From NCBI GenBank assembly GCA_029851415.1, contig CM056743.1:91052501-91116500 (forward strand): a stretch of DNA of 64,000 nucleotides, given 5' to 3'. Position numbers and translations under genes: made by a program. Below the pieces are notes generated by a model. It saw only the letters and a list, made by a program, of their open reading frames with translations, did not search any database and was not told the DNA's origin. Every line of letters begins with the position of its first letter. Position 1 is the first letter of the stretch. This stretch comes from Eretmocerus hayati (taxonomy: Eukaryota > Arthropoda > Insecta > Hymenoptera > Aphelinidae). This document shows positions 2,001 to 39,830 of this stretch, in pieces.

Positions 2001-2580
2001 AGCTCAAAAGTGACCATACGACATCATTATCTAGGGGAATCTATACTACAATACAAAATTTCAACTCTCTAAGTTGAACAGTGGAGCCAGAACATCAATA
2101 TATTGCATGTTAGCACCGATCTCTTCGGAAAGTGCAGTTTAGGTCTTGGGAGACAGAATTGCTTTCAGAAGAGATGAGATCCTCGTCTGTACATAATGGA
2201 TTGCCTTGGAACATACTCTATTGGATTACAAAATTTGAGGATGATTAAATCAATTCCCAAGGAATTAGGGAGTCTAGCATTTTTCCTTACTCGTTCCCAA
2301 AGGGAAGTGAGAATGAGTCTGAGAGACAAGATTCTTGAAAATTCAGCGTTAGCTCAAGACTAACTATACTCCCTACTGGAAGAGGCCGAGTCGGTGACCG
2401 AGACGGTTGACCGAGTCGGTGTACGGAGTCGGTGACTGTTTCAGTTTACCGACTCGGTCACTTCGCATGGAATGGCCTGAAATGCCACGAAACGAACAAT
2501 AAATGATAAATTATCGTCAGAGGTTAATAGAAAAATTCTTAAAAAATAGAAAAAAACAGGCCCGGCTATTTTCACAATTT

Positions 2581-2652
2581 TGACGCGAGTGGGGTTCGAA
2601 CCTGCAATCTTTTTATTACGAGTCCAAGCACATGTGCCCGGGGCCAGCGAGA
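2581..2652 (-). tRNA. tRNA-like cassette (Thr-CGU-like), left arm of the 2371 foldback
   Basis: Read on the minus strand, it has a tRNA-like body with anticodon-loop context ACTCGTAAT and a perfect B box GGTTCGAACCC. The acceptor and T stems pair poorly and the A box region is degraded, so this is a tRNA-derived Pol III unit, not a working tRNA gene. The mirror copy is at 3247-3318. Confidence 0.5.
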
Positions 2653-3246
2653 CATGTTACGAGAGAGGGCTTAGTGAGCGTACTTGGAGTGTGACTCATA
2701 GGAAGTACATAAGATCTGTTTATCATCAGTTTTATCATGAGTTGATCATAAACTCCGGCGCCAGAGCACTGAGTCACGCCGTAGCTAGGATGGGACTTAG
2801 AATATTTCTAGATCTGGCTGCTTGACCGAGTCGGTTGACTGACTCGGTCAACCGAATTCAAATTCTCGCGGGAAAGCAACACGCATAAAACTAGGAAAAT
2901 TTTCAAAATTTGACTGGTTAACCGACTCGGTGTTACTTTCCCGTGAAAATTTGGATTCGGTTGACCGAGTCGGTGTACCGTGTCGGTAGTTAATCAGCCA
3001 AATCTCGGAAATTCCCAAGTCCTATGCGAGTTACTTTCCCGTGAAAATTTGAATCCGGTCAACCGACTCGGTCAAGCAGCCACATCTAGAAATATTCCAA
3101 GTCCCATCCTAGCTACGGCTTGACTCAGTGCTCTGGCGCCAGAGTTCATGATCAACTCATGATAAAACTGATGATAAACAGATCTTAGGTACTTCCTATG
3201 AGTCACACACTCCAAGTACGCTCACTAAGCCCTCTCTCGCAACATG

Positions 3247-3318
3247 TCTCGCTGGCCCCGGGCACATGTGCTTGGACTCGTAATCAAGAGATTGCAGGTT
3301 CGAACCCCACTCGCGTCA
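3247..3318 (+). tRNA. tRNA-like cassette (Thr-CGU-like), right arm of the 2371 foldback
   Basis: Inverted copy of the 2581-2652 unit. It has B box GGTTCGAACCC at 3297-3307 and is followed at about 3342-3360 by long T-runs that could end Pol III transcription. Transcription would run outward, through the element end at 3532. T-stem pairing is only partial, so tRNA function is unlikely. Confidence 0.5.
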
Positions 3319-4305
3319 AAATTGTGAAAATAGCCGGGCATGTTTTTTTTCTTTTTTTTAGAATTCTCCTATTAACCTCTGACGATAATTTATCATTTAT
3401 TGTTCGTTTCGTGGCATTTCAGGCCATTCCATGCGAAGTGACCGAGTCGGTAAACTGAAACAGTCACCGCGCGACTCCGTACACCGACTCGGTCAACCGT
3501 CTCTGTCACCGACTCGGCCTCTTCCAGTAGGGCTACATCATCTCTTATGAGAATCTACACTGTTATACAAAATTTCAGCTCTCCAAGTTGAACAGTGAGC
3601 CCAGAACATCAATATATAGCATTGCAGTTAGCACCGATATCTTCGTAAAGTGGAATTTAGATCTTGAGAGACAGAATTTCTTCCAGAACTAATCAGATGC
3701 TTGTCTGTACACAATAAGTTGCCTTAAAACATACTATACCAGGTTGCAAAAGTTGAGAATAGTTGGATCAATAATCAAAGAGCTAGGTAGTTTAACGTTT
3801 TTCTCTAATCGTTCCCAGAGGGAAGTGAGAATACGTGTTTACGACAACTTTTTGGAAAAATCAGCGTTAGCTCAAAGACTTACCATACTACATTATCTCT
3901 TATGGGGTTCTACGCTGTCATACAAAATTTTAGCTCTCCAACACGGAGAGACCAAAACGTACTCGCAAGGACGTCGCGCGGCCCCGCGTCCGGCTCGGCG
4001 TGCTCGCGGCGTGCAGCGCGCGACATCGGAGTGTCTGACCCGCCCCGATCATGTTGTGCATGTTACCGTGGCGACGCGCAGGACAACGACGTGACCGGCT
4101 CCTCGGAACTGTTTTGAGAGCCGCAGTGATGTTTCGACTTCCTTGTTCTCGTCTTAATATTATGAGAATGGAACCGCGTGTCTTTATCTCGATAATTGAT
4201 CACTCATTGGTTTCAGCGCCCTCCGCTCATGGAAAAAATTAATCGATTTGAGGCCTCTCCGAGAGGACTATTGTTCATATATGACTTCTTAAACAACATT
4301 TGTAA

Positions 4306-4376
4306 CCTGTTGATTAGCTTAATGGTAGGGCGCAAGCTTCGTAGTCCAAAGATCTTGGGTTCGAGACCCGAAAACC
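4306..4376 (+). tRNA. tRNA-like cassette, left arm of the TA foldback
   Basis: Contains an A-box-like TAGCTTAATGGTAGGGC, an anticodon-loop-like CTTCGTA and B box GGTTCGAGACC, followed by a run of ten T (about 4380-4390). Acceptor pairing is weak. The mirror copy is at 5297-5366. Confidence 0.5.
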
Positions 4377-4711
4377 ACAATTTTTTTTTTCTTCATGTGA
4401 GGTTCATAATTTTGCCTCAAATTTCTAAATTCTCCATCTTTTTTAGAATCAAAATATAGTACCCTATTGTCTGTTACAATTTTTCGGTACTATATTCTCT
4501 GTACAAGAAGAAACTTCGAAATATTTTCACTGTAAGTAAATCATGCATCGAATCTCTCCTATTTCAATGTTCGATCTTTATATACATTAGCTCACGTTAG
4601 ATGACGAATTCCATCGACACCTCGACTCCAAGCTAGATAAGTAGAGCCCAAGTGACTACCCGTAAGGGGATGTCGGAGTCCTATGAATGTTGTACAGTTA
4701 CCGGCATCGTC

Positions 4712-4848
4712 GAGTTTTCGGATTTCTCGATGAATTTTTGAGATATCAAAAATCTAACAGGTAACGCCGATTCTATGAGCCACACAGAATCGGCGTTACT
4801 TATTGAATTTGCGATATCTCGAAAATTCATCGAGAAATCCGAAAACTC
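4712..4848. repeat. Hairpin of ~65-bp arms at the centre of the TA foldback
   Basis: GAGTTTTCGGATTTCTCG at 4712 is mirrored by CGAGAAATCCGAAAACTC ending at 4848, and GTAACGCCGATTCT is mirrored by AGAATCGGCGTTAC. The loop is only a few bases. It may be a separate small foldback element. Confidence 0.7.
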
Positions 4849-5296
4849 AACAATGTTAGTATCCGATATCCTCTTAAGGCTTTGGAACTGATCTGCGTCG
4901 GATGATACTCTTCACGCGATTGAAATAGTTTGTTCTTCAAATGTATCTCCGTACAGAGTATTCAGAGAAATAAAAATTTATGAGATAAGTTTTGAATTCA
5001 TATTTATATAATCCATATTTATCCATATAATTCATATTCATATAATTTTTAAATCCATTATAAAATTAAAATTTATAATATTTATATTCAAATAATGAAT
5101 ATTGCAGAACTGAGGAGATTCATTGCATGAGCTATCTATTGTAAAATGATTTCAAAGTTTTTCCTTCTGCAAAGAGTATATTACCGGAGAATTGTAACAG
5201 ACTATAGGGTACTGCATTTTGACTCTAAAGAAGATGGAGAATTTAGAAAATTTGAGGCAAAATTATGAACCTTACATGAAGAAAAAAAAAATTGTG

Positions 5297-5366
5297 GTTT
5301 TCGGGTCTCGAACCCAAGATCTTTGGACTACGGAGCTTGCGCCCTACCATTAAGCTAATCTACAGG
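5297..5366 (-). tRNA. tRNA-like cassette, right arm of the TA foldback
   Basis: Inverted copy of the 4306-4376 unit with the same boxes. The adjacent A-run (5282-5291 on the plus strand) is the T-run terminator in the transcribed sense. Confidence 0.5.
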
Positions 5367-5715
5367 TTACAAATGTTGTTTAAGAGGTCATATACACCGT
5401 GTTTCAAAAGGTGTGTACATACCGTAACAGGGAGTTAGAAAAAATTTTGTATTTTCAGAAAAGTTTTTCTTGAAGTTTTGTAATAATTTTCAGATTTTGT
5501 AACTTTCAATAGAAAAAGTCACTTTTATCATTACATTTGTAATGTTTGAAATTTGGCGGCAATTGTTTGTTGTGTAATGATTCACCACTAATCATTACAT
5601 AAACAATATGTAATGATTAGTGTAATGCTTTCGAGGTTATGTGTATTGAATAGTGAAGAGAGCTCGAAATTATCCCGGCAGCATAATACGGCAAAGCCGG
5701 CAACGGCTGGTCACG

Positions 5716-8694: not shown

Positions 8695-8721
8695 GATAGT
8701 TGTTTATTTCGACTATGGACT

Positions 8722-12961: not shown

Positions 12962-13233
12962 CCCTGCCTAAAATAAAAGGCTCATTTGAAATGACTCAGG
13001 GATTTGGGATATTTCAAATGACTGATTTGAAATGAGTCATTTGAAATATGTGTTTATAACTAAGTATTCTACGCCTGAAATGTAGAAAGGAATACTGAAT
13101 CAAACATTGATTTTCGGAATTTTTATCAAGTTTCCCAAATGAATCATTTCAAATGAGTCACATCAAATGAGTCATATTTCAAATATCCCAAATCCCTGAG
13201 TCATTTCAAATGAGTCATTTATTTTAGGTAGGG
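12962..13233. mobile_element. 272-bp MITE with CCCTGCCTAAAA ends, GA target duplication
   Basis: Starts CCCTGCCTAAAATAAA and ends ATTTTAGGTAGGG, flanked by GA (12960-12961 and 13234-13235). The first satellite monomer gives the empty site GATGAGATCCTCG. Both ends carry repeats of the palindromic word TCATTTGAAATGA / TCATTTCAAATGA and of CAGGGATTTGGGATATTT. It has no coding capacity. Confidence 0.87.
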
Positions 13234-14057: not shown

Positions 14058-15454
14058 CATGGTAGGCAGAATAAAATATATAAAAAAAATACCACAAGTT
14101 GTGATATTTTTTTCTGCACGAGAGGGGGCGCTCGCGGGAACCTAGCCGTTCCGTCCGTCGGAACGTGGAGCAGACAGGCAGCAGACTGCAGTCGAAATTG
14201 AAATGATGAAATTGCATTGCGAGAAAGCCAATCTTGCAGTTTTTCAGTGCGCTTGATTTTTCTGATGTTTCATGTGTTTCAGTTCTTAGAATAAGGCCGA
14301 TCTCGTCTTCATCGTTGCGCGACTCTGAATTCTCATCATTTCTTACAACTGCACTTTTGATTCTGCACCTGCCGACATAATCGAAGTTTTCTATAATCCG
14401 TAGTTTCAAGGAATTTCTTCAAATAATTTGACCAATTCATCGAATTTGATCAAATGTTTGATTTGATGAACCTGTTATCAACTGTAACAATTCTCAGATT
14501 TATAAACTCACATAACTTCATGAAATTATTGAAATATGGGATCAAGATTGCTGCTTTGCTCAGGCGAAAGAGGATGAGGAAGCATGCATGGCACAGGTAT
14601 AAAATAAAGCAGAAACTTGGAACTACAAATTCACCAAGCGAAGGGGAATTAGTTGATCAGAAATTGGAAATTCAAATCTAGATTCTATATTGAACGAGTG
14701 ATATTTATTTGAAGTTCCTCTGACTGTACTAGAATATGATCCACAAGCCATAAAGTTCAGAAAGTTGTCAGAGCACGGAATTAGTTTGTTGTGACAAGTA
14801 AGCAGTGATTTGTATATCCATAGCGGTGGCAAAGGTAGTGCTGATGATGTAATTGGTGAATGCTTGAGTAATTATGGTAATGCCAATATGACTTTGGTGA
14901 TGAAGATTAGAATGTGGTACTCATAGGGAATTGTTGGAAGATCAGCTATCTTGGAGAGATTTACAATTTTCGGGTTCACATCCTGATCTCCATCACAAAA
15001 CTTATAGCGGCATTACCATCATCACCCAAGCATCACCAATTGAGGGATCTGAATCATTCATCACCATCATCATCACCACCTTTGCCACCGCTCATATGGA
15101 TATACAAAAAACAGTTTACATTGTCACATCAAAGTGATGCCTCGCTCTGACAACTTTCAAACATTTGGCTTGTGGATCACATTCTGGTGGAGTAAGAGGT
15201 ACTTCAGACAAGTATCACCTGGTCAATAAAGCCTCTGAATTTTAATCTTGAGTTCCTGAACGTCTGATTTCCCATCATTTAGAGAATTTGTAGTTCCAAG
15301 TTATTGCCTATTATTCTGATGTGTCTGTGCCATCGTATGCTCCCTCATTCTCTTTCGCTTCAGCGAAGCAGAAATCTTGGTCCCATAACATCGAATACTT
15401 CCATCTAATTATTGGATATTCGACCCACAAATAACCGTATGCTCGTACTAAAAA

Positions 15455-16030
15455 TCCTATCGGGGGTGAAATCAACCCCAAATCCTAGGAGAGCAGATTA
15501 ACCCGCGAATGCCCGGATGCTTGGTCCAAAAATTCTGTCGGGGGAGAAAACAACCCCAAAACCTAGGAAGGCAGATTAACCCGCGAATGCCCGGATGCTC
15601 GGACCAAAAATTCCGTCGGGGGAGAAAAAAACCTCGAAACCTAGGAAGGCAGATTAACCCGCGAATGCCCGGATGCTCGGTCCAAAAATTCTGTCGGGGG
15701 AGAAAACAACCCCAAAACCTAGGAAGGTAAATTAAACCGCGAATGCCCGGATACTCGTACCAAGAATTCTGTCGGGGGGGAAAATCACCCCAAAACCTAG
15801 GAAGGCAGGTTAACCCGCGAATGCCCGGATGCTCGGACCAAAAATTCCTTCGGGGGAGAAAAAAACCTCGAAACCTAGGAAGGCAAATTAACCCGCAAAT
15901 GCCCGGATACTCGAATCAAGAATTCTGTCGGGGGGAAAAACAACCCCAAATCCTAGGAAAGCAGATTAACCCGCAAATGCCCGGATACTCGTACCAAAAA
16001 TTCTGTCGGGGGAAAAAGAACCCCAAACCT
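15455..16030. repeat. ~79-bp tandem array in the left hAT-like arm
   Basis: About seven units with landmarks GCCCGGATGCTCGG, AAAATTCTGTCGGGGG and AACCTAGGAAGGCAGATTAA. Inverted copies form the 18868-19640 array. Open frames are repeat translations. Confidence 0.9.
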
Positions 16031-16341
16031 GTTTTTATGGAATTAACGCCGTTTGAGGATTGGATGTTATCGTAGGCACAAGTTGACCCCAGAATCGTCT
16101 TTAGATGGTCATTTTTAGTCGAAAAAACATGTTTGTATTTTTATCCTATCCACTCGTCTCGTTTGTGGGCAAGAACCCGGGAAATCGCGTCTGGCTTGAG
16201 GCTCCTGTCTGGGAGTTTTTCTACATATTTGGGGGTACTTTGTGGAGTAAGTTCCCACACGCTCGCGCACACTAGTTCAGATGGGAGCCTATTTGAGCCA
16301 TCCTTATGGGATCATTTTCAGCAAAAGGTCACCAAAGGGTA

Positions 16342-17176
16342 CCGTCAAATCGGGTAACTTTTGTAGTGGGTGCAACTTCGGTCCCCCCTGAAAAATGACT
16401 TTCAAAGCTGCATTTGGCAAGGTGAATGATTCTATCGCTCTTAAATCTACCCTCTCTTCTAGGCACACACATAAACAATGTGTTAAGCCACCGTAGATCC
16501 CGTGTGGATGATTGTAATCGTTTATCGACGTTTTTTCCAAAAAGGTTGATTTAGCACCGATATGCGCGAGTGATCCAGTCACGATACCTGGCAAGAAGTG
16601 TTCCCGAAAGAACTACCCGTGTATGTTGCTGCATTTCCATCACATATATCACCATATTGAACAAATCATCGTTACATTAGAGTATTTACACCATTTGGAA
16701 TTTTAATGAATGAAAAACAGGTGGGAAAAACATGAAAAAACGTACCAAAGTTACCCTACTCAAGGTAAGAAGCATGAGGATACGGTAACTTCGGAACACC
16801 TCCATATGACAGCTTCTTTTCAACTTATCTTGAGTCGAGTGATGGTCTGTGAGGTTTTAAAATGTTTCAAACAGCTTAAGATGAAGCTTTTGAACGATTA
16901 AAATCAATTCACTCGCATGATGGTGGGTAGAACTGAGATATTCTGTAAGTGTACCAAAGTTGCTCCATCGGGGTCTAACTTTAGTACACTTCTTCAACTG
17001 CTAATAGCTCTGGCATTGACACATCAGATTGAACTTTGTAGCCCGTCAATCGAAAGATGAGACTGTAAGCTTTAGATAGACTACTAATAGGAGTGGGTTT
17101 TGTGAATGTATGTTGGAATGCCGAGCCAAAAAGATGAAAAGCACCGAAAACGTACCAAAATTACCCAATTTGACGG
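16342..17176. mobile_element. 835-bp TA-flanked MITE-like element
   Basis: Begins CCGTCAAATCGGGTAACTTT and ends with an inverted copy in ATTACCCAATTTGACGG, flanked by TA (16340-16341, 17177-17178). Internal copies of ACCAAAGTTACCC are scattered through it. Ends and TA target suggest Tc1/mariner-type mobilisation. No transposase present. Confidence 0.7.
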
Positions 17177-17245
17177 TACTCTAAACAGTCTACCGAAAAT
17201 CAGGAACCAAAAAAGCCACCCAGATTATTATTCTAATTGATAGTA

Positions 17246-18378: not shown

Positions 18379-18867
18379 TATTTGGATCGGACAACATTCG
18401 CACAGGTTTGGGGTCGAAAGAAAAAAACGATTTTTTTAAATTGAGCTCAAAGTTTGGCATTTTCACGAAACTGCTCACCTTGTAACGACTGTAACTTCTA
18501 TAAAAAATACGATAATCGACTTCTACCGGTGGTCTAACTGTAGGTCTTTTCAAGACCTTTAAAATGACTACTGGTAAAATCGATTATCACATGTCTAGTA
18601 GGAGCTAGATCACTTGGAAGAAGACCCATAAATTGCTGAAATCTGCTACCAGCGAATTCAGAGACGAATTCAATATAAGGTATTATATTGGTTTGGCACA
18701 AGCGGTGTGCATTATATACACTGAAATCGGAATTATTTCGGTGGAGTGGTAGTGAGAATGTTCAGGATGCAATCGTTCATGAAAATTTCCATGATTCGAA
18801 TGCGATTTCCATAGCCAAAGTCGATTCCCAAAGAATTCCCTGATTTCCAGATCGCTAGACACCATAG

Positions 18868-19640
18868 AAATTAACCCGCTTTGCCCGGATGCTCGGACCG
18901 GAAATTTTGTCGGGGAAAAAATTAAGACCTTAAATCGTCGCCCTTAAGGGGCGTCGGGCATATGCGGGTTAATTTACCTTTCTAGATTTCGGGGTTGTTT
19001 TTCCCCCGACAGAATTTTGGTCCGAGCATCCGGGCATTCGCGGGTTAATTTTCCTTCCTGGGTTTTTGGGTTATTTTCTCTCCCGACAGAATTTTTGGTC
19101 CGAGCATCCGGGCATTCGCGGGTTAATCTGCCTTCCTAGGTTTCGAGGTTTTTTTCTCCCCCGACGGAATTTTTGGTCCGAGCATCCGGGCATTCGCGGG
19201 TTAATCTGCCTTCCTAGGTTTTGGGGTAATTTTCCCCCCGACAGAATTCTTGGTCCGAGTATCCGGGCATTGCGGTTTAATTTACCTTCCTAGGTTTTGG
19301 GGTTGTTTTCTCCCCCGACAGAATTTTTGGACCAAGCATCCGGGCATTCGCGGGTTAATCTGCCTTCCTAGGTTTTGGGGTGATTTTCCCCCCGACGGAA
19401 TTCTTGGTTCGAGTATCCGGGCATTTGCGGGTTAATTTGCCTTCCTAGGATTTGGGTTTGATTTTCTCCCCGACAGAATTTTCAGTCCGAGTATCCGGGC
19501 ATTTGCGGTTTAATTTACCTTCCTAGGTTTTGGGGTTGTTTTCTCCCCCGACAGAATTTTTGGACCAAGCATCCGAGCATTCGCGGGTTAATCTGCTTTC
19601 CTAGGATTTGGGGTTGATTTCACCCCCGATAGGATTTGTA
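18868..19640. repeat. ~79-bp tandem array in the right hAT-like arm
   Basis: About ten units, the inverted counterpart of 15455-16030. The copy number differs between arms, so the arrays have changed since the inverted arms arose. Confidence 0.9.
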
Positions 19641-26520: not shown

Positions 26521-27601
26521 ATGGATTTGGATGACCTGGAGGTGAGTATTTGTCTCTGAGCCCGTTGAAAAACAAAATCAGTTGTGGTGAAACCACAATT
26601 TCCACATAAATCCGTGAATCATTCAAGATCTTTTCAGGAGTCCTTTGTAATGGAAAATAGTTGCTTTAGCCTGTAGAAGTCGTTATGATTCAAATCTTCA
26701 ATGTTTCAATTTTTCTCATCTCTATCTTTGTGTTTGGTTCCAGAATATATTCTCCTTCGAAAATGTTGACAACTTGCATGACATGCATGGGGATGAAAAT
26801 GATGAAGACAGTAATAATCTGCGTGGCTTGAGAGTTCCTAGACTGATCAGAGATCTACAGAATCCTTTTAAAAAATACCGTGAGAATGAATTTATTGATA
26901 GATTCAGGTTCTCGAAATCTGTTGTGATGCATTACATCCTGCCGCTCATCAGGCATGCTCTGGATCATGATAGCAATAGAGGTCTACCTGTACCTCCAGA
27001 GATACAACTAACTGTAGGTCTCAGTTATTATGCATCAAATGATTTCCAAGTGAGTATCTTATTCACACCATAACAGCAAAGATTTTTTTGTTTAAAAACA
27101 TAGTCAGTCGATATCAAAGATTACTTGCAGAGCGCACTCGTAATCATATTTATCTCAAGTGAAATTATAATCTCATGTCCATTGATCAGATGAACTTTCC
27201 TTGGGTTTCAGAGAGTTGATGGTGATCTATTTGGACTGTCACAGCGAACTGTATCCATATGCATTAAGAGAGTTTCGTTCGCTCTAGCTGACCTAATGAA
27301 CCAGTTTGTACAAGTTCCTCTAGCTGCTGAAGAGCAAGCAACTAATGCTCAACTTTTTCATCTTGTTGCTGGCATGCGTAGCATTTGGGCTTTAATAGAT
27401 GGTTGTTTGGTCAAAATATCATGTCCTGGAGTAGCAATAGGAGAAATTTTTAGGTACCGCAAGAGCTACTATGCAATCAATGTCATGGTAAGGGAATGAG
27501 TCTGATTTTGTGCAACATGAAAAATATTGTCATTGAATCACAAACATACTAAAGAATGGAATCTTTTTAATTGAATTGCAGGCCGCTGTTGATGCAAAGG
27601 A
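26521..27601 (+). pseudogene. PIF/Harbinger (HARBI1-like) transposase gene, 5' part: exons 1-3 and start of exon 4
   Basis: Proposed exons are 26521-26541 (MDLDDLE, donor GTGAGT), 26744-27049, 27212-27487 and 27582-27601. All boundaries are GT...AG and all keep phase 0. The product is a PIF/Harbinger DDE nuclease, a cut-and-paste transposase that also gave rise to the domesticated HARBI1. Seen here are the N-terminal helical region with NPFKKY, the box GDLFGLSQRTVS and the first catalytic Asp in LIDGCLVKI, followed by the EIFRYRKSYYAINV block. Exon 4 is broken after the codons for AVDAK by an 11.4-kb insertion and resumes at 39013. The frame is otherwise open, so inactivation by insertion looks more recent than gene decay. 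Whether it was a transposon or a domesticated gene cannot be told; no Harbinger TIRs were identified. Confidence 0.85.
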
Positions 27602-27851
27602 CCCTGCCGGAAAAAATCGGGTGATTAATCAGCTGATTAAGCATGCCAAAATATCACCCAAAAAATCAGCTGATTAATCGGCTGATTAATCAGCCAACTT
27701 ATCAGGGGATCGTTCACCCAGAATTGCAAATTACAGAATATTCATTTTACTTCCTGGAACGCACCTGGAAGAGTCTGAAGGAGAAAAAAAAGATGAGAAT
27801 GGCTCAAAAATGAGAAAAAATTATCACCGGCCTTTCCACTGTCGACACCCG

Positions 27852-27925
27852 TGGCTGATGGTGGGACTCGAACCCACGACCTCTCGGTTAGAAGTCGGAC
27901 ACCTTATCCTCGTGGCCAGCGAGTC
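27852..27925 (-). tRNA. tRNA-like cassette (Arg-UCU-like), left arm of the 11.4-kb element
   Basis: Minus-strand unit with A-box-like TGGCCACGAGGATAAGG, anticodon loop CTTCTAA and a fully paired T arm (GTGGG and CCCAC around TTCGAGT). The acceptor stem does not pair, so it is tRNA-derived and not a canonical gene. It lies ~250 bp from the terminus with the 3' end outward. Confidence 0.6.
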
Positions 27926-28089
27926 AGGTTACCGGATGATCCATAAAAGCCATACTTGAAAGGGTTATTCCGATCCGTCGAAGATTTCGAATTGGACGAT
28001 TTTTCGATATTCCTTCCCGGTCTTGGTGAACAATAAGGGACCTTGAAAAATATATTCCAAAGCATCTACATGAGAGCCGCTCAATCCAA

Positions 28090-28552
28090 TGAAAAATTAT
28101 TTTTGGCCTTGGTGAACAATGGAAAAATGCGGAAAATTATATCTCGGGGGTTTTGAGGGTCCCTGAACTCGAATCCGGTGGAATTATTCCTTTACAATTA
28201 GTTTAAACAAAGTTGTGTAAACAATTTGAGCGGAAAAAATGTTTTCGGCCTTGGTGAACAATGGTAAAACCCGGAAAAATATAACTCGGGGGTTTTAAGG
28301 GTCGCTGAATACGAATCCGATGGAATTATTCCTCTACAATTTGTTTAAACAAAGTTGTGTAAACAATTGAAGCGGAAAAAGTGTAATCGGCCTTGGTGAA
28401 AAATGGAAAAATCTGGATAAATATATTTAAAGGGTTTTGAGGGTCGCGGAACTCGGATCCGATGGAATTATCACTCTACAATGTGTTTGAACAAAGTTTA
28501 ATTTAAGCGGAAAAATTCTTTTCGGCCTTGGTGAACAATGGTAAGATCCGGA
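28090..28552. repeat. ~134-bp tandem unit, left arm
   Basis: About four units with landmarks TCGGCCTTGGTGAACAATGG, CTCGGGGGTTTT and GTTTAAACAAAGTTGTGTAA. Inverted copies occur at about 38150-38520. Confidence 0.8.
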
Positions 28553-29318
28553 AATAGTATATTACGCAACAAGTGCGAGGAGGTCAATTTCCGCACAAGT
28601 TGCCAAACGAGGGCGAGAAGTTAATATTCACGCACACTTTGGAACTTCTCGCACAGCCAGAAGAACACATTTAATATTTTGCTGTACCCAAATCGCTTCG
28701 CGAGCGTGCGTAACTATGTACTTCTGGGTGTGCGAGAAGTTTCGAAGTGTGCGTGAATGTTACTTCTCGCGCGAGTTGGCAACGTGTGCGGAAACTTCTC
28801 GCACGTGTTGCGTATACTATTTTTTGCAACTGTGCGCGAAGTTGTAATTAAATGCACCACTGTCCGAGCAAGATCATCTTGAGAACGGAGTTTTCAAGAA
28901 AGGCCAAATTCAGAGGGATGACTTGACATCATATTTTGGAACTGTGCGTGAATGAAAATGCATTAGAGCGAGAAGTAACATTTACGCACACTTCACCAGT
29001 GCGTAAATGTAAAACTGTGCGAGAAGTCATTCACGCATTACTTCTCGCACTGTAAATAATGAAGAGAAGTCTCATTTTCTTACAACTTCGCGCACACAGT
29101 TGCAAAATAGTATATTATGATACAAGGGCGCAAACGATGGTTTTCGCACTTCGAGTGACTTGTTTAGGCCCGAGCCGCAGGCGAGGGTCTAAATAGTCAC
29201 GAGAAAGCGAAAAACATTGCGCCCGAGTGTCATACTATGTTTTTTGATCTTCTGTGAGCAAATAAAAAGCGAAAAACAGTGTGCAAATGACTCATTTGCG
29301 CACAGACGATCAAAAAAT
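28553..29318. repeat. Cluster of four adjacent hairpin (MITE-like) units
   Basis: Four back-to-back inverted repeats: about 28553-28823 (ends around GCAACAAGTGCGAG), 28816-29115 (TGCAACTGTGCGCGAAGTTG), 29117-29233 (GGGCGCAAACGATGG-like) and 29233-29318 (TTTTTGATC...). Junctions carry TATACTAT or TAGTATA-like motifs. All four are rich in TTCTCGCAC/GTGCGAGAA words. The cluster interrupts the 134-bp tandem unit. Confidence 0.7.
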
Positions 29319-29639
29319 ATAATTCGATGGTTTCGAGAGTCACGGAACTCGAATGAAATGAAAATATCTGAGCTCATTTGATTTGATTCGTGACTATAAA
29401 TACCAGTCTTTGAAGGGCATTAAGTGTTCCGGTTACTTACTATTTGTGTATAAGATAAAGATCTTCATTCATGTTTATGAGAATGATGAGACACTCTCTT
29501 TCGAACATTTGGAAAGGCTGGAACAACAAAACCACAGAGAATTGCATTGATTCTGATTGGTTTATGTAAAGATTGGACATTAGAAGGATCAGAATTCAAT
29601 CGCCAATTATCGATAGGGTCGTTGAGTTTTTAAAACAGT

Positions 29640-30310
29640 AAAAGAGATCTTCATCTGCATTAATATAGGTGAAGATGTCTTTTGAGTTATTCAAAAAGAA
29701 ATTCATTCAAAAACCAAGCGACGTACTCGATATTTTCCGATTCAATTTTTATGCTTCCAATGTCCCATCTCCACATAAACCAATCCAAATCAATGAATTT
29801 TTAGGTTCTTTTCGGAATGACTTTTGGGAATGTTCGAAGAAGAGGCTTTCATCATTCTTATGAATATCGATGAAGATGTCTTTTAGTTGTTTAAAAACTA
29901 AACGGCGTACTCGATACTTTTGATTGAATTTTCATCCTTCCAATGTCTGATCTTCACATAAACCAATCCAAATCAATAGATCAGTTTTTCATGGCTCGGT
30001 TGGGCTAACCTCTGTGAGTATTTTGAGGATAGTATCTCATCATTCTCATATGAATGTAGATGAAGATCTCATCATTTCTATAGATATAGATGAAGATCTC
30101 TTTTTGTTTCTCAAAGACTAAGCGACAAACTCGATATTTTTCGATTGCATTTTCACCCATCCAATGTCCGATCTTTACATAAAAAATGAAAATCAATGCA
30201 AACCTTTACGGTTCTTTTGGGATAATCTCTGGGAATGCTTCGTGGTCAGTAAATCATAATTCTCACAAATATAAATGAAGATGTCTTTTAGTTGTTCACA
30301 AACTACTCTG
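29640..30310. repeat. ~200-bp tandem repeat
   Basis: Three or four degenerate units sharing GATGAAGATGTCTTTTAGTT, AAGCGACGTACTCGATA and CACATAAACCAATCCAAATC. Confidence 0.65.
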
Positions 30311-30639
30311 GAAAAACTCCTTCCTGTTCTTCAGTACGATTAATACGACACAACAATACAATTTTGTGAAAAAATTCACAATACGTGAATTTTCTTACTG
30401 AATATATTGACTATTCAATGCGCAATATTGAATCATTCTTCAGCACAGCTGATTGAAAAGTAACAATTTATATTGAATATTAAACGGTTACGTCTCGAAT
30501 ACCGTGAAAGTTTGTAAAATGAACGTTTTTTATGTTAAAAAAGTAAAAATTTGGTTGAGCTTTTACGAATCTTACACTTCATCACCTGAAAGCGACGCCC
30601 TATCAATATTTCTCTCAAAAACGTATCTCAATTCTGCAA

Positions 30640-30720
30640 TATGTCGTTGGTGGGGTTTGAACCGGGGCACTTTGGTTAGTAGTCTGGAGACATGACCACT
30701 GCGTTACTGAAACACATGTC
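30640..30720 (-). tRNA. Isolated tRNA-like cassette
   Basis: Minus-strand unit with A-box-like TAACGCAGTGGTCATG, anticodon-loop context CTACTAA and B box GGTTCAAACCC, then a T-run ~40 nt on. No mirror copy was found in the window, so it may be an orphaned arm of a broken element. Confidence 0.42.
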
Positions 30721-30751
30721 TGGAAACCGGCCGGTCTCAAAACGCCAGTAT

Positions 30752-31204
30752 TCCACACAGCATGGGAGTATTTCAGAAAAACATTTCAATGAAATGTTCC
30801 AATGAAATCTTCGAGAAACCTCGCAGGAATATTTCAAGAAATGTTTTTGTAAAGTTTCATTGCAATATTTCAATGGAATATCACACAAACCTCGCAGAAA
30901 CATTCCAAGAAATGTTCTTGTAATATTTCTTTGCGATTCCATAAATACTTTCTGGAAACCTCCTGGAAACCTCGGAATGTTTGGCATATATTTATCTGAA
31001 TGATTTTTGAAAGGTTTCTGAAATATTTCAGTGCAGTGTTCCATGGATAGGCCTTCAAATATTTGTGGAATACTGCTCAACAGTTTCACATCAATCTTGT
31101 ATTTAAAGATCTTTGCGGAGTTACTGAAAGCTTTCTGTAAGATTTTCAAAAGTTTCCTGACAGCTTCCTCGGGAATTTCGGCCCAATCCGGAATTTCAAA
31201 AATA
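30752..31204. repeat. GAAA/TTTC-word repeat block behind a CCACACAGCATGGG edge
   Basis: Starts CCACACAGCATGGGAGTATT and continues as dense AATATTTC/GAAACATT words until the hAT-like element. The same edge is seen at 13932 and, inverted, at 41577. Confidence 0.5.
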
Positions 31205-31212
31205 TTTTAAAC

Positions 31213-34200
31213 CAGGGTTTGTAACGGAACTTATGTTTCGTTTCGTTTCGTTTATTTCGGTGAAATCTCAATAATGTTTAGTTTCGTTTCGTTTTTCAAT
31301 AACCATAATCAAAATTCCAGAATTTAGTTTAGTTTTTTCCATAAACGAAACTCAACTTAATAATTTGATTTGAATTACGTTTTTCATTCCGTTTATGAGA
31401 AACGAAACTAAACAAAAACGAATTATGGTTGAGCTAGAAACTTAATGAATCCCAACAAAAATGTCGGTGAGAGAAACGAAACAAAACGTTAATCATGCAT
31501 AATTACGGTTACAATAAACGAAACGAAACATAATCGATATGTTTCGTTAGAAAACCAAACGAAATCAAACGAAACTATTTCGTTTGAGGGGAGGAAAGTA
31601 AACGAAAGTAATTTCGATTATGATTATGATAAACGGAACTAAACGAAATTGATATGGATTATGTTTATTATGAACGAAACTAAACGAAATCGATTTGAAT
31701 TATGTTCATGATAAACGAAACTAAACGGAATATATTTCAATTATGATATAAGACATCAGACGTAATCAATATGAGTAAACATCGTTTGGAACGGAAGCCG
31801 AGCGTATTGATATACAGGAACGGTTGCATGAGCGAACGCAAATTTTCTCCTCCACCCCCCCCCCCCCCCCGCCTCTCATCCGCTTTCGGCAAGACTTCGG
31901 CAGAACAGTGGTAGGTAATGGACAACACCCATGCTAGTCGATCGGAATTTCTTTCGAAATGTCTCGACGTGCATGTCTGAGCATCCGAGAAATTTACAAC
32001 AACAGACGACGATGGTGGCGACGATCCTAACCCTATGACCCACAAGGCTTCGTGACGTGGGCACCCGAGTTTGCAAAAAAAATTATGGGAAACATACTAT
32101 CTGATTAGTATACTATCTAATAGTATTCCATTCAAACAAGGGCTGTCAAGTAAATGTGATGATTGGTGGAATCTCAGAAATTTTCTTCAACAGCGCGTAT
32201 GAGCTGCCAGCTCCCAGAGGAGTCTTTGGATTTGGGAATTTGGGGTTCACACAGACCTGAGTGCTTTGGGAACCAACAGTGAGGATAGGATATGGGATCA
32301 GTATTGGACACATTTCTATTATTTCAGCATTAATGCAGTTACGCGAATTTGCATTCCACTGCACCATCTCCGTTCGATCATTGCATTAGTAACGGCACAA
32401 CACTTGGTGGAGGCGAGGGTCTCTCTACCCTCCCTAGGCGAGAGGATTGAAGTCCACAGGCCAATAACGCAAAGAAGAAGGAGAGCAGAGACGGTGAAAG
32501 CGACCGGCCAATCTGCGAGCGCCCTCCGGGTTAGCCATGTTGGATTCCGGTGGCTGCGCGAGGAAGTGAGCTGAGTCTGAGCGCCGGAGTGGGCAGACCT
32601 TCTTCATATGATTGTGGTCTCAGTGAAACCACCTGACTGGACCTTGTATGATTTCGTGCTCCGCGGCAACTAATGAGCTTTTGTATCGAGCACCTCATAC
32701 AATAATGATCATTTTGGGGACATAAGAGAACTTACTTCACGGTAGCAGAAGTCTCGTACGGATAGGAACACCACGATTGCTGCAAAAAAAAAATCGCCCG
32801 AGTTTTCTTAGCACCTAAAAACTCCCCAATCTCTTTTTGAAAGAACTCAGGTGTGTACAAATTATGAAAAACTTGGTTTCCGATTGCGCTCAACGTGATC
32901 AGTTAGTCTGTATCGTTCCATCAATCTTTTAGTAACTTTGGTGTTACAGTTTCTCACAAGCCATATACGCAGCACGCCACAAAGACACAGGTCCGCCAGT
33001 GTCACAGGTGGCCGCCGCAATGTGCTACTGTGCTACTCGCATCCACTCACATCGTTATGCCTTCGTCAATTGCAGACAGATTACGTGACTCTCGTTACCT
33101 CAATTGAAAGTTTTGAGGGATACAAAAGTATCGGATGATCGAAGAATCCGTGAACTCCTGAGTGTAAAATCGATTCGAGGCATCGGACCAAGGCATCAGT
33201 TGTCAGAGTTCGCTGCAATGCGACGATAGCTTAGAAAACTATCAGTATAATAGGATTATACGATATTTCTTAGAAACGATATTTGCTGATTTGCTTTGGA
33301 TAGGTAAGTACAGTCACTACCAAAACTCCATCGAAAAATGGAATTGTGTTCTGCGGGTCTCTATCTGCTTCAACGTTGACATCAAGGCCTCCATATTGTT
33401 TTGAATTTTAGAGTTTGCTGTCTCATTTGCTCTCACGTGCTATAGTGTACATTACTTATTCATTGATGTCAACAGCAGAACGAGACTGACAATGTCGCAG
33501 CTCCAGCTACGCGTACTGTAAACATTCTCACAAATCTCGAGCAAGGTAGATATAACTACAATAGAGCGTTTCTTACATCCCACTTAGGTATTCCTGCACA
33601 ATAATTGTATCCGAGCAATATCGAACCTCACTGGCATACAGATCTACAAGTTTATTGATTGGTGGATGCATCAAGCTGATACCAGTTAAGCAGCTCTAAA
33701 AATTTCATTATGAGGTCAGTAACAACAATATTTGTATTTTCGTTGAAGAACTTATTTTCGTACTGTATCCCAATGTTCTGTCTTCCAGAAAATGTTGATT
33801 TGTCTGTAAATGTATCGTACTTGTAGAAGTTTGGGAGCAATTGAATATGAATAAATACGAGAAATCGGTGAAGTTATACAAAATCAATCATAATTCCCAC
33901 GACATTATCTAGGTTGACCCCTACATAACGCAGGAGTGCGTGGTTATGGCTCTTCGAATGAACCTCCAACCCTCTTCTTCCGAGAGATCTCAACTTGGAG
34001 TAGAATGTACCTGAAATCATTCGCATGAACCTAACTCTGCAGATTTTGGAACAAACAACAATATCTTCTATTATTCCATTGGATGGGAAGATTTTTGTCG
34101 CATCTAAAAGTGGCCCACCCCAAGGGATTCCTCTTTATCGTCGAACCCTATGACTACCCTAAAATAAATCAAAAAAATCCTTTGGATACACAAATCGATG

Positions 34201-35179
34201 GGATATCTTGCAATATGTGGGACGCTTCACTCAAGATTTTTTTCTAATGCCAAACCTCCTGAAAAAATCTCCGGTTTAATGGCCTTTGGAATGATACACT
34301 GTTTATGAAAGGAACTGTGCGGTCAAATTTGTTTGATGGAATTTCGATATTTTTCGTTTCTTAGTCAATGGATTGCTGTCTAACTCTCGGCTCGGTCCTG
34401 GGTGACCCCTCTTGGCTTACCTAAGCCCCCCAAATAATAGTTGTGTGCTAACGAAATCAGCACGAGCCTTTATCGAGGAAGGACTCCACAGCTATCACAC
34501 TGTAGCCTCCCAGTGCTCCCTATCCACCCCCCTCCCTACACACACTCACACAGACACACATTCGGCCATCCTCATTGTTCATACGATCTGGCCGAAATCA
34601 AACTGTATCACACGACACGTATATACTGTTCTTTACCGTTATTGCGCCGAAGTTTTGCACAGATTTGATGGAGGGGGGGGGGGTTGGCTTGGCTCAACGT
34701 TTTGAATTATGTTGATTTGTTTCGATTACGTTTAGTTTCGTTTATCATAACCATAATTAATTTTGATTTCGTTTAGTTTCGTTTATCATAAACATGATTA
34801 ATTTCGATTTCGTTTATTTTCGTTTATCTCAACAAAATTTCGGTTGGAATCAATTTCCATAACTAATGAATCGTAATTCCTCTCTGTTTGGTTTCGTTTC
34901 TCATCAACGACATCAGGATCAATTTCGTTTCGTTTCGTTTTTGAATGAACGAAACGAAACTCAATTGCTTTTGAATATGTTTTCATCTCTGTTCAACGAA
35001 ACGAAAATCAGAATGATTATGTTTTGTTTCGTTTACCTAATTCTGTGGATATAATGTTTACGTTTAGTTTCGTTTTTCATGAACGAAATTATGATTGATT
35101 TCGTTTAGTTTCGTTTTCCAATAAACGAAACGAAACATATTTAATAATTTCGTTTAATTTAGTTTAGTTACAAACCCTG
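31213..35179. mobile_element. 3.97-kb hAT-type foldback with TTTCGTTT-word arms
   Basis: Ends CAGGGTTTGTAAC and GTTACAAACCCTG, flanked by a perfect 8-bp duplication TTTTAAAC (31205-31212, 35180-35187); CAGGG ends and 8-bp duplications are typical of hAT. Arms of ~500 bp (31213-31740, 34695-35179) consist largely of AAACGAAACGAAAT words in both orientations. The centre has C-run and G-run tracts near 31855-31871 and 34672-34684 in mirror position, and no recognised gene. Confidence 0.85.
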
Positions 35180-35984
35180 TTTTAAACTGATTCTACAATA
35201 TTTCACCAGCAACCTGTCAAGAATCTTGATTCGGAGAAGTTTATTCCGTGAGGTGTATGAAAGGTTGCCAGAAAATTTCAGAACAGTATTCCAGAAGTAT
35301 GACTCTCAAATATCGCATCATTATCCCCTTGACAATTTGCAACAACCTCGCGCTTGAAAATACTCAAAGGTTTCTGAGGGCCTCTAATAAAAATTCCAGT
35401 GTCACATTCCTAATGAACCATTTCCAAACATCCTTGCAATGCTCAACCCAAGGGTGTTATCGCGATGACTTACCCGGAACGTGTTATGACCTTGCCATTC
35501 AACGAGCAAGCTCCAAATCACCCCACTCAAATTTTCCTACACATATGGTATTAAATATGCTTGGTTGTGAAGTTTCAGTTCGGCCCGTCAACTCATCTTT
35601 TTTATTTTTAAAGAATAATGGTCGAAATGTCAATTTCGTGCATTATTACATTAGCAGTTTGACGTATACCTCCGCCGCGCCGCGCGCCGCCAGCGTTGGA
35701 ATTAGAGTTGCTGGGGGTATCCTCGAATTCTTCCTTCAAAGTACAATATTGAACCAACAATTTTTCATAGGTTTCATGTCCAGAATGTTCAGTTTAGTCT
35801 CCAAGTTATGTGCCTCAATCTTTTTATAGGATTTTCACTGAAAATGAGACATTTTTTTAAAGTGCTCACCGCGCTTGGATTCACTCGAGCTCGCTTTGTC
35901 GCGGACGAAATTCCAAGGAAAGATTTCGAAGAATTAGATCGGAACTCGAGAAAATGCCCAGAGTCAAAGTTCTGAATACTGCAT

Positions 35985-37143
35985 GTACATTAGGGTGAGC
36001 CGAAGAAGGACTTTTTTCGAGAGTCTATACGCCCTATCGTGGAGATGTTGAGATTGTACATAGATATGTGAAAAAAATTTCGGCGGACGCTGAGGAATGA
36101 GATTTTAGGTCCCAGCAAGAGCCATCAAGCTTTTATCAAAATTAACACAGGTTTAAATGGGAATGTGCCTAAGTCGGCACTCTTTTCTTCCTAACTTTGC
36201 TCGCATTTCTGGCGTATCCAAGCATTTTTCAACGTACTTTAGCTCATTTCAAAGCTTGTTCCAGTTTAATTCCAGTCCATACAAAATGTGCTAAAGTACG
36301 TTCAATTTCAGACAACCAGAGGAAATCTATCTCAACTTCTCTAAAAAGTGATCATTATCAGAAATTCCAAAAATAGGGCGATTCTCTCTCCAAACTTTGC
36401 TTGTATTTCAGGTGCATCTGAACATTCTTCAACGTGTTTCAATCCATTTTAAAGCTTGTCACCAAACCTACAAAATGAGCTGAAGTACGTCCAATTTCGA
36501 CTAGCCCGAACCAATCTATCTCAATTTTTCTAAATAGTGATTGGTTTTGAAAAATCCGGAAATAAGCGACTTCTCCCCTCCGCCTCACTCCTTCGAAAAC
36601 TTAAAATGGAAAAATTGAGGTAGATTGGCTCGGATAAGTCGAAATGGGACGCACTTTAGCTCATTTTGTAGGTTTTGTGACAAGCATAAAAATGGATTGA
36701 AACACGTTGAAGAATGTTCAGATGCACCAGAAATACAAGCAAAGTTTGAACTGAGAATTGCCCTATTATTGGAATTCTTAATAATGATCACTTTCTGGAA
36801 AAATTGAGATAGATTCCCTCTGGTTAGTTGAAATTGGACGTACTTGAACACATTTTGTAGGATTTGGAACAAGCTTCAAAATGAGCTAAAGTACTTTGAA
36901 AAATGCTTGGATGCGCCGGAAATGCTAGCAAAGTTAGGAAGAAAAGAGTGCCGAATTAGGCACATTCCCATTTAAACCTGCATTAATTTTGATAAAAGCT
37001 TGATGGATCTTGTTGGGACCTAAAATCTCATTTCTTAGCGTCCAGCAAAATTTTTTCCCCATCTATATGTACAAACACAACATTTCCACGCTAGGGCGTA
37101 TCCATTTTCGAAAGAAGCCCTTTTTCGGCCAACCCTAATGTAC
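35985..37143. mobile_element. 1.16-kb foldback with TGTACATTAGGGTG-like ends
   Basis: GTACATTAGGGTGAGCCGAA at the left is mirrored by TTCGGCCAACCCTAATGTAC at the right. Arms of ~400 bp are visible, with internal repeats around AGCTCATTTTGTAGG and AAGCTTGTTCC. Half of its right arm is duplicated at 45434-45605. TGTACA is itself palindromic, so the exact target duplication cannot be fixed. Confidence 0.7.
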
Positions 37144-38130
37144 ATTCGTGACCGAAAATTAGCCATGTAATTAACTTTTTCACGATTTTGTCAGTTCATA
37201 CCATGTTACCCCCTAAAAGTCAATTCATCTAGGCGGAAACAACTTTCAAGTGTGATGGGAATAGATAAAATCTGCGCGAGGAAATTTCTACGTCAACTTC
37301 ATTATTTTTGCGGAAGAATGTAAGGGCAAAATTTCAGTTTCATGCATGTCAGTTCCGTGCATTCTGAAGTCGTCCCCTGGGATACTCAATAGCACGAAAA
37401 GGAGAAAGAAATGAAATTGTCTGCTCCAGAGCATGTATATCCTACTCAAACCAACCGCAAATGTCAGTTCCGTGTACTACTTTCCCGATGTCTTATACAT
37501 GTGAAAATGACATATACCGTTCTAGCTCGTTGCAAAAAAAATTCGGCATATGTTTCATCGCATATTATCACTCAATGGACGTAAAGGAATGTGACAAGTT
37601 GGGATAGACATGCGGGGCATCAATTTTCAACTTCTGAATTTTTGGGTACAAAACGGGTAAGTTATCGCGATAATACCCACATATAAACCTTTAGCAAGCT
37701 TACTTCGAAGCTTTTTGGAAAGTTCCTATGTGGAAAAGCTCCTTGGAATACTACTGAAAGATTTTCAAAAGGTTTCTGGCACGTTTTTGGAATGTTCCTG
37801 ATTTATTTCTGAAGTGTTTCTGAAACGTTTTTGGCAGGTTTCTGGGAGATTCCTAGGAGTTCTATCGTATAGCATCTTCGATTCAATATTATTCTCAACT
37901 ATTCCTGCAATATTTCACTGACAATATGTCATCAATCTTGATTCAGAGAAAATATTGTAAGGGTTCTGAAAGGTTGCTAGAAGATTTGAAAGCAATATAC
38001 CAAAAGGATGGCTTTCAAGTATCCCATAAATATTTGACTGGCAAGTTTAGCAACCTCGCGCTAAAAGATTCAGAAAGATTCCTCAAATTTTCCAGAAATA
38101 TTACAAATTCGTTTGAACAAATTATAGAGT
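37144..38130. repeat. Segment duplicated at 45606-46220 plus 57131-57344
   Basis: Same order of landmarks in both copies: CATTCGTGACCGAAAATTAG, GTTACCCCC, AACTTTCAAGTGTGATGGGA, GGGTACAAAACGGG, TTTAGCAAGCTTACTTCGAA. It supplies an empty site for the TTAA element at 46225. The right part merges into GAAA/TTTC-word repeat. Confidence 0.75.
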
Positions 38131-38149
38131 AATAACTTAATTCGATTCG

Positions 38150-38520
38150 TGTTCAGCGACCCTCAAAACCCCCGAGTTATATTTTTCCGGGTTTTACCAT
38201 TGTTCTCCAAGGCCGAAAAGAATTTTTTCGCTCAAATTATTTGAACAACTTTGTTTAAACAAATTGTGGAGGAATAATTCCATCGGATTCGAGTTCAGCG
38301 ACCCTCAAAACCCTTTGAATATATTTATTCAGATTTTTCCATTTTTTACCGAGGCCGAAAACATTTTTTCCGCTCAAATTGTTTACACAACTTTGTTTAA
38401 ACTAATTGTAGAGGAATAATTCCACCGGATTCGAGTTCAGCGACCCTCAAAACCCCCGAGATATAATTTTCCGCATTTTTCCATTGTTCACCAAGGCCAA
38501 AAATAATTTTTCATTGGATT
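38150..38520. repeat. ~134-bp tandem unit, right arm
   Basis: Inverted copies of the 28090-28552 units, with ACCAAGGCCGAAAA, AACCCCCGAG and TTACACAACTTTGTTTAAAC landmarks. Confidence 0.8.
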
Positions 38521-38677
38521 GAGCGGCTCTCATGCAGATGCTTTGGAATATATTTTTCAAGGTCCCTTATTGTTCACCAAGACCGGGAAGGAATATCGAA
38601 AAATCGTCCAATTCGAAATCTTCGACGGATCGGAATAACCCTTTCAAGTATGGCTTTTATGGATCATCCGGTAACCT

Positions 38678-38751
38678 GACTCGCTGGCCACGAGGATAAG
38701 GTGTCCGACTTCTAACCGAAAGGTCGTGGGTTCGAATCCCACCATCGGCCA
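38678..38751 (+). tRNA. tRNA-like cassette (Arg-UCU-like), right arm of the 11.4-kb element
   Basis: Inverted copy of 27852-27925. T arm GTGGG-TTCGAAT-CCCAC is intact, the B box is perfect, and a T-run follows at about 38781-38790. It reads outward to the terminus at 39012. Confidence 0.6.
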
Positions 38752-39012
38752 CGGGTGTCGACAGTGGAGAGGCCGGTGATAATTTTTTTTCATTTTTGAG
38801 CCATTCTCATCTTTTTTTTTCTTTCAGACTCTTCCAGGTGCGTTCCAGGAAGTAAAATGAATATTCTGTAATTTGCAATTCTGGGTGAACGATCCCCTGA
38901 TAAGTTGCCTGATTAATCAGCCGATGAATCAGCTGATTTTTTGGGTGATATTTTGGCATGCTCAATCAGGCGATTTATCAGCTGATTAATCACCCGATTT
39001 TTTTCGGCAGGG

Positions 39013-39435
39013 GAGAGATTTGTTTGTATAGATGTGAGACACCCTGGATCTGTCCACGACCAAACATGGTTTGATAGAAGCGCACTAAAAATGATTTTAG
39101 AAAGGAGGAATATTGTAGAAGCTAACGTAGGATATTATATTTCCTCTGAGTTCAGATTATCAATTTTTTCTTCACTTAAAGGAATTCTTTTGGGTTATCC
39201 AGGGTATGCTTGTGAGAGGTATTTATTCACACCTATTCCAACGCCATCAAATCAAGCACATGAAGCTTTCAATGAAAGTCTCATCACAACAAGAAGTTTC
39301 ATTGAAAGAGTCTTTGGGCGATGGAAGAAAAAGTTTCCCTGTTTGCAGGGAGTTCTACGCACCATGTTGGACACATCAATTGCTATCATCTGCGCAACAG
39401 CTGTGCTGTGGAATATCCATGTGAATCTGAATCGT
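39013..39435 (+). pseudogene. PIF/Harbinger transposase gene, 3' part of exon 4
   Basis: Resumes the broken exon in frame. The second catalytic Asp lies in VRHPGSVHD, the family's GSxHD box. The catalytic Glu lies in TTRSFIERVFGRWKKKFPCL, the RxxIE box. With the first Asp upstream, the complete DDE set is intact. The frame ends about 350 residues from the first Met, close to the usual length of HARBI1-type proteins, where a second CCCTGCCG-ended element begins after the codons for VNLNR. The natural C terminus was not located. Confidence 0.85.
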
Positions 39436-39830
39436 CCCTGCCGAAAAAAAGCAGCTGATTTCTCAGCTGAGAAATCAGCTGAGATCACAGGTGACTTCAC
39501 AGCTGAGATCTTAGCTGAGATCACAGCTGATTTCCCATGCCAAATTCACAGCTGAATTCTCAGCTGTGATCTCAGCTGATATTTTAAGATTTATTTATTA
39601 AAAATAAATTCCTCTCCAAGCTTACTAGACTAATTTTTCATGTTCTAGGTGGTTAAGTGTCGCACCTAGATTAAGAAAAAACGTATTTAAATCATTAAAA
39701 ATTTGCACTTACGGGGATTTGAACCTGGGCCCTTCACCTTACAGCAACTCACTAGCCACGACACTTAGCCGACTGCGCCATCGAGGATGTGTCAGTGGGA
39801 GATACAGAACAGGTATATCAGGATTTCGGT
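39436..39830. mobile_element. Second CCCTGCCG-ended element, one end visible
   Basis: Begins CCCTGCCGAAAAAAAGCAGC directly in the Harbinger exon. It continues with many copies of TCAGCTGAGATCACAGC-like words, then AAATTC/CATGCCAAA and a minus-strand tRNA-like unit ~270 bp in: the same order as the arm at 27602. The matching right end was not found in the window, so the right limit given is arbitrary. Confidence 0.7.
39703..39789 (-). tRNA. tRNA-like cassette in the 39436 element
   Basis: Minus strand: a near-consensus A box TGGCGCAGTCGGCTAAG, anticodon-loop context GCTGTAAG (Tyr-GUA-like), B box GGTTCAAATCC and T-runs further on. The body is longer than a standard tRNA and stems are imperfect. 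Confidence 0.5.

Follow-up and report, generated by a model that had tools for sequence, protein, structure and literature searches.

Three described systems come closest to the elements discussed here: the CACTA-type transposons, which have a 2-bp target site duplication (TSD) and CAC...GTG ends (PMC6004678), the Galileo element of Drosophila (PMC3573991), and the heads of short interspersed nuclear elements (SINEs) in Helicoverpa (PMC3272025). The present analysis concerns three foldback elements, E1 (2371-3532), E2 (27602-39012) and E3 (from 39436), in a 64,000-nucleotide stretch of the Eretmocerus hayati genome (C3:91052501-91116500, hereafter the window; assembly size 692 Mb), each of which carries a tRNA-like unit of RNA polymerase III (Pol III) type in its arms. 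We regard E1, E2 and E3 as probable non-autonomous, CMC-like foldback transposons, in which the tRNA-derived units are family-inherited passengers made symmetric by the likeness of the arms. The internal A and B boxes of SINE heads likewise derive from tRNAs. The Helicoverpa heads share a tRNA-related region (PMC3272025) with our units, which lie instead within DNA-transposon arms, in both arms, where neither a SINE body nor a SINE tail was noticed. Galileo has the same long, internally repetitive inverted arms and copies that are hardly more than arms; however, it is a P-superfamily element with 7-bp rather than 2-bp flanking duplications, and the excerpt of its description contains no tRNA-like arm units (PMC3573991). 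With the CMC-NA miniature inverted-repeat transposable elements the new elements share the 2-bp TSD, a conserved short word at the terminus, terminal inverted repeats (TIRs) and the finding of no coding capacity, but they differ in their CCC instead of CAC ends, their long palindromic arms with tandem arrays, a tRNA-like unit per arm and a transposase source that was not found (PMC6004678). The literature searched, with partial coverage and crude terms, returned nothing of the kind for tRNA-like units in transposon arms, and as far as these searches go the association appears new as a variant.

The families end in CCCTA and CCCTG, their end words also being given as CCCTGCCG and CCCTACTG. These ends match CMCWR, the terminal motif of the CMC (CACTA-Mirage-Chapaev) group, and not CAC...GTG. 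Two-base TSDs flank 16 of 19 two-ended E1 copies, where their sequence varies, 9 of 10 E2 pairs and, as read by eye, the single E3 fetched (1/1); empty sites were reconstructed by eye from the flanks, and all genome copy surveys count the window's own elements. The combination of a 2-bp TSD with C-rich ends points to the CMC group, which the elements most resemble and to which they would belong. A piggyBac assignment was rejected despite the CCCT ends, as the TSD is not TTAA. The families have long inverted arms, in which tandem repeats occur: E1 copies form near-complete palindromes, E2 arms have 142-bp repeats, E3 arms reach 2181 bp, and L029 has 174-bp arrays. The last of these (C1:126869400-126879399) is a 10-kb relative of E1 whose long repeat arrays may be a satellite seed. 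No transposase was found among the copies examined, which comprised a Pfam search of seven window open reading frames (ORFs), two of them in E2, and inspection by eye of the ORF lists of L029, L066, L088, L009, L011, L014, L015 and L027. The E1 terminus had no match in viral_contigs in one search.

Structurally, E1 is a palindromic foldback with the TIR CCCTACTGGAAGAGGCCGAGTCGG and a CT duplication, and E2 is an 11.4-kb foldback with the TIR CCCTGCCGGAAAAAATCGGG and a GA duplication. For E3, only the left arm is recognised in the window (39436-39830, TIR CCCTGCCGAAAAAAAGCAGCTG). The starts of all three elements are as given in the first-pass annotation of this DNA; the ends of E1 and E2 had to be corrected to 3532 and 39012, and the right end of E3 was not recognised within the window. 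E2 adjoins a DDE_Tnp_4 coding stretch, which is HARBI1/PIF-Harbinger-like. This one stretch (within 27590-39435) is adjoined by both E2 and E3, which lie about 420 bp apart.

The units were located by a strict scan that demanded a B box matching GGTTCRANNCC at 9/9 positions and an A box matching TRGYNNARNNGG at 5/8 or better, both being consensus strings. Eight units were found in the window, compared with a mean of 0.9 and a maximum of 2 in 20 Markov-1 sequences, and seven of them had been picked out in the first-pass annotation: 2602 (-) and 3297 (+) in E1, 27874 (-) and 38729 (+) in E2, 39725 (-) in E3, and 4358 (+) and 5314 (-) in a TA-flanked foldback described below. Raising the A box to at least 6 left 6 units against 0.2 in the null, E1, with its weak A box, no longer being detected. 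When the scan was loosened to a B box of 8/9 with an A box of 6, the enrichment was gone (13 in the window versus 10.15 in the null, with a maximum of 15). The eighth unit, 30653-30706 (-), lies within E2 (A box TAACGCAGTGGT, B box GGTTCAAACCC, spacing 43).

The left-arm unit of E1 spans 2592-2646 on the minus strand (B box 2592-2602, weak A-like box 2635-2646) and is followed by T-runs starting at 2556, 2546 and 2535. Its right-arm counterpart spans 3253-3307 on the plus strand (weak A-like box 3253-3264, B box 3297-3307), with T8 runs starting at 3343 and 3352. In E2 the units are at 27864-27918 (-) and 38685-38742 (+). The E3 unit (39715-39780, minus strand) has an A box TGGCGCAGTCGG (8/8), a B box GGTTCAAATCC and a T5 run starting at 39701. 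All show the Pol III layout of A box, B box, tRNA-like spacing and T-run, the A box being weak in E1 (5/8) and moderate in E2 (6/8). The distance between the boxes is 43 to 44 nt in the window units (44 in E1 and E2) except for E3, where it is 55, and the first T-run, 5 to 10 long, begins 12 to 43 nt past the B box. These findings agree with the first-pass annotation that the complete elements E1 and E2 bear the unit in both arms, and that E1, E2 and E3 all have a B box, a downstream T-run and a 3' end directed to the nearer terminus.

The same arrangement recurs across the genome. The exact terminus CCCTGCCGAAAAAAA is present at 155 places (reversed control, 0), and at least 69 of the 155 have an outward B box at an offset of 262 to 292 bp from it; a reversed-pattern control gave 0, and the orientation contrast is based on this control and on sampled arms. 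Copies of E1 have CCCTACTGAAAGAGG ends and are mostly near-complete palindromes of about 1160 bp. Among 40 E1 arms, one of which is the right end of L018 and not a true second arm, an outward B box is present at 9/9 in 36, at 8/9 in 2 and at 7/9 in 2. E2 copies have CCCTGCCGAAAAAAATCGGG ends, arms of roughly 0.9 to 1 kb that contain the 142-bp repeats, and paired arm matches from a few kb to 28 kb apart. Thirty E2 arms were fetched and 29 used, L061 having no recognisable terminus, and the outward B box scored 9/9 in 26 and 8/9 in 3 of the 29, at offsets of 262 to 312 bp. Since the E1 and E2 copies were chosen by best similarity to queries that contain the unit, its presence in them is biased upward. 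The one full E3 fetched, L088, is about 8.8 kb long and has 2181-bp arms that are 99.4% identical, a CA duplication (by eye) and units in both arms. The E3 arm matched at 96-100% identity over nearly its whole 395 bp at each of the 40 places scored out of 319 candidates, and the scored copies other than L088 are 96-98% identical to the E3 of the window. A further 20 termini, from C1 and part of C2, were picked regardless of the unit among those that had no earlier match; 17 are of E2/E3 type and 3 are not E2/E3-like. Only B boxes were counted in this sample because its 351-bp stretches lose some A boxes, and an inward B box (8/9) was seen at 1 of the 20 termini, overlapping an outward one. Together, the offsets and B boxes mark position and orientation as family traits with drift; the constancy of place and orientation proposed in the first-pass annotation holds in the copies examined, and the random placement that would have spoken against it was not seen.

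Conservation of the unit was compared with that of the arm around it. In the 40 E1 arms, substitutions per 10-bp bin amount to 0.3-3.5% over the first 100 bp, against 1-6.5% in the unit, which resembles the rest of the arm. Diverged copies came from the 20 sampled termini (4 E3-like and 5 E2-like, L108 being left out) and were compared by identity to a reference arm. For the subterminal sequence, spacer, B-box arm and rest of the unit, respectively, identities were 86.8, 83.4, 82.6 and 82.6% in the E3-like copies and 92.8, 87.3, 89.1 and 85.4% in the E2-like copies. The unit is conserved no better than the adjoining spacer, and the subterminal sequence is somewhat higher in these nine diverged copies. 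Broken copies also occur: the middle of the unit is deleted in L105, and the B box is broken in L103. The two arms of an element are slightly more alike than arms re-paired between elements, with values of 0.9627 versus 0.958 in E1 (18 elements, with L018 omitted; reached by 1 of 2000 permutations) and 0.9805 versus 0.9762 in E2 (10 pairs; reached by 17 of 2000 permutations). Copying between the arms, or their common descent, would therefore account for the paired units without selection.

The degree to which the units resemble true tRNAs varies. With the Rfam tRNA model the best window score is 26.3 bits for the right unit of E2, under the cut-off of 29 and covering positions 8-63 only, followed by 17.4 bits for the left unit of the TA-flanked foldback (positions 1-71). 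The E1, E3 and left E2 units are not reported as tRNA by Rfam, and ARAGORN at default settings finds 0 tRNA genes in the window. Functional tRNA genes were rejected on these grounds, all units falling under the Rfam gathering threshold. ARAGORN at lowered thresholds performs at noise level, with dozens to hundreds of window matches (40 at -ps80, two of them at E2 units), and matches to MIR families were under gathering scores and were taken as hairpin effects. When 12 of 17 fetched host tRNA genes were used for comparison, the E2 unit was nearest to real Ser-GCT (26.5) and Arg-TCG (22.6-23.6) genes, the best partner of the E1 unit was that of E2 (21.3), and the E3 unit reached 13.8 at best; different real tRNAs score a mean of 15.9 among themselves. 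By eye, the anticodon position reads TCT in E2, whose left unit appears Arg-like, and CGT in E1. These readings agree by eye only with the isotypes Arg and Thr of the first-pass annotation, for which neither Rfam nor ARAGORN gave confirmation. The label Tyr for E3 was rejected, as the spacing of 55 argues against a plain Tyr unit and there is no Rfam score. A loose look through the genome with RF00005 gave 38150 first-look candidates, of which 27 matched among 63 scored. Separately, L085, L086 and L087 represent a dispersed tRNA-like family with flanks conserved on both sides and Rfam tRNA scores of 37-39 bits, which may represent a SINE or else the arm of another transposon.

These data are consistent with a history of three families with CCCT[A/G] ends, 2-bp target duplications and subterminal repeats particular to each. 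A tRNA-derived, Pol III-type unit would have joined an arm in the ancestor of each family and then multiplied with that arm. The unit would be in both arms because the arms are close copies of each other, slightly more alike within an element than from one element to another. The constancy of the unit's place and its outward orientation would be inherited, the drift of its offset in E2 and E3 may reflect expansion and contraction of subterminal repeats, and the unit would then decay about as fast as the arm around it. Any transcription that persists should give short RNAs whose ends lie inside the element, not beyond the terminus. The repeated capture suggested in the first-pass annotation is possible under this history, and the 5' stretch common to the E1 and E2 units is of borderline significance.

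Several observations weigh against such passive carriage. That a single window has strict units in four families, three with CCCT ends and one TA-flanked, is a lot for pure hitch-hiking, and strict A/B units are scarce in random sequence of the genome, with 0 in six 5-kb stretches; 7 strict units lie outside E1 across the E1 loci, 5 of the 7 from one locus. The first T-runs of the E1, E2 and TA units are 6 to 10 long, compared with random 60-nt stretches, of which 0.8% contain a T8 run and 16% a T5 run. Among the 17 E2/E3-type termini sampled regardless of the unit, 12 have a B box that points outward with a score of 8/9 or higher, at offsets of 183 to 310 bp (7/9 in 3, less in 2). In L102, an E2-type unit retains its T-stem through a paired change, G to A and C to T; this is a single case that may be chance. 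The pattern of substitution in the 29 E2 arms is mixed: 0.7-2.6% in the unit bins (281-380), 0.5-1.0% at positions 81-220, 1.3-4.2% in the first 80 bp, where the repeat number varies, and 0.7-2.4% in the inner arm, with one bin at 4.1%. At this shallow depth, E2 alone does not show the subterminal repeats to be the best-kept part, nor is the unit specially kept. Lastly, the difference between arms within and between elements is small.

The passenger reading has to be set against others, the most durable of which is an unlikely single ancient capture, whereby one unit in the common ancestor of E1, E2 and E3 diverged until it resembled three sources. Relative place and orientation are alike in all three, the termini of E2 and E3 are homologous (a 35-bp alignment, score 40 versus the best 28 of 100 nulls), and the E1 and E2 units align at z 6.2-8.2, with GTAAC[A/C]TG.CTCGCTGGCC common to both, upstream of and over the A box (by eye). 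However, the spacing is 44 in E1 and E2 and 55 in E3, the local match between E1 and E2 arms, in the 5' part of the unit, is borderline (reached by 2 of 100 nulls), and the arms of E1 and E3 are not alike. Except for that borderline match, the arms of the three families are not recognisably alike beyond the termini. Other unit pairs, E2 with TA and E2 with the unit at 30663, reach z 4.5-7.1, so tRNA-likeness alone can give such values, and the E2 unit obtains a lower score with E1 than with the genome's own real Ser-GCT and Arg-TCG genes. A common A-rich stretch of E2 and the TA foldback scores 31 versus a null of 30, just above it. By eye, GTAACCTG is found upstream of both the E2 unit and the TA unit.

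It is improbable that the units form a functional Pol III module, maintained by selection because the element might benefit from Pol III factors or short RNAs through open chromatin at its ends, boundary activity or evasion of silencing. The order of A box, B box and T-run does appear in several families, and E3-like copies such as L096 and L106, with an identity of about 78-80%, still have an intact B box. The selection for a Pol III unit that the first-pass annotation proposed nevertheless finds no echo in conservation beyond the spacer, and broken copies exist. In addition, three CCCT palindromes lack a strict unit: a small CCCTGCC palindrome at 12962-13233 (TSD GA), a small (C)CCTGC palindrome at 62622-62933, with its first C apparently changed and a TSD of TG if so, and 1878-2514 of L017. 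A possible further CCCTGCTGC element at 47082-54714, reported by the terminus detector with 26/30 TIR matches and TT on both sides, also has no strict unit and may be a fourth. Among the outcomes that would count against the first-pass reading, absence of the unit from other CCCT families is therefore observed in the few examined. CCCT pairings at 4462-5209, 36032-37096, 36032-45558 and 58641-61134 were dropped as lying inside or across other palindromes. The independent TA-flanked foldback (4280-5392) has paired units at 4309-4379 (+; T10 starting at 4381) and 5304-5357 (-; T10 starting at 5291) that point inward, as had been noted before, and hence in the opposite direction to those of E1-E3. 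With T-runs 164-265 bp inward of the terminus in E1-E3, outward transcripts should terminate short of it; this counts against end-derived RNA and makes the transcription through the terminus envisaged by the first-pass annotation unlikely. Quite improbable, too, is the recurrent recruitment of Pol III units to one favoured position, in one favoured orientation, behind the subterminal repeats, where bound TFIIIC/Pol III might keep the ends accessible or avert silencing of the hairpin arms. Overall, the functional reading is weak, and its bolder form is weakened by the data.

A SINE inserted into one arm per family, copied to the other arm and then shorn of its tail is a very improbable source of the units, because, even though tRNA-like sequences may be abundant (the 38150 loose candidates) and L085-L087 form a dispersed family with conserved flanks, the E2 unit as sole query returned places of which 38 of the 40 scored (40 of 191 candidates) lie at E2-type arms or termini by eye, with 2 unchecked, and neither a SINE tail nor a duplication from insertion was noticed beside the units, though no dedicated test was made. 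The arms do not correspond to one recognisable SINE, in keeping with the first-pass annotation.

Foldback elements seem plentiful in this genome, and further palindromes of 300-1130 bp are found near E1 copies in L013, L019, L020, L023, L024 and L025. The window itself holds a 5.1-kb palindrome at 57343-62432 (96% over its length), one arm of which has a Pfam integrase zinc-binding (H2C2) piece in an ORF that recurs in the opposite arm, and a 7-kb inverted repeat at 14061-21028, whose arms measure 1.7-2 kb, match at about 95-97% and enclose more repeats.

As it stands, the finding is of tRNA-derived sequence that is carried and spread by foldback arms without visible selection. This bears on the annotation of tRNAs and SINEs in genomes of this kind, in which very many loose tRNA-like candidates seem to be present. 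Proof of recurrent capture would show that the uptake of Pol III promoters is open to DNA transposons as well as to retroposons, and it would allow a test of what TFIIIC-type boundaries contribute to transposon survival.

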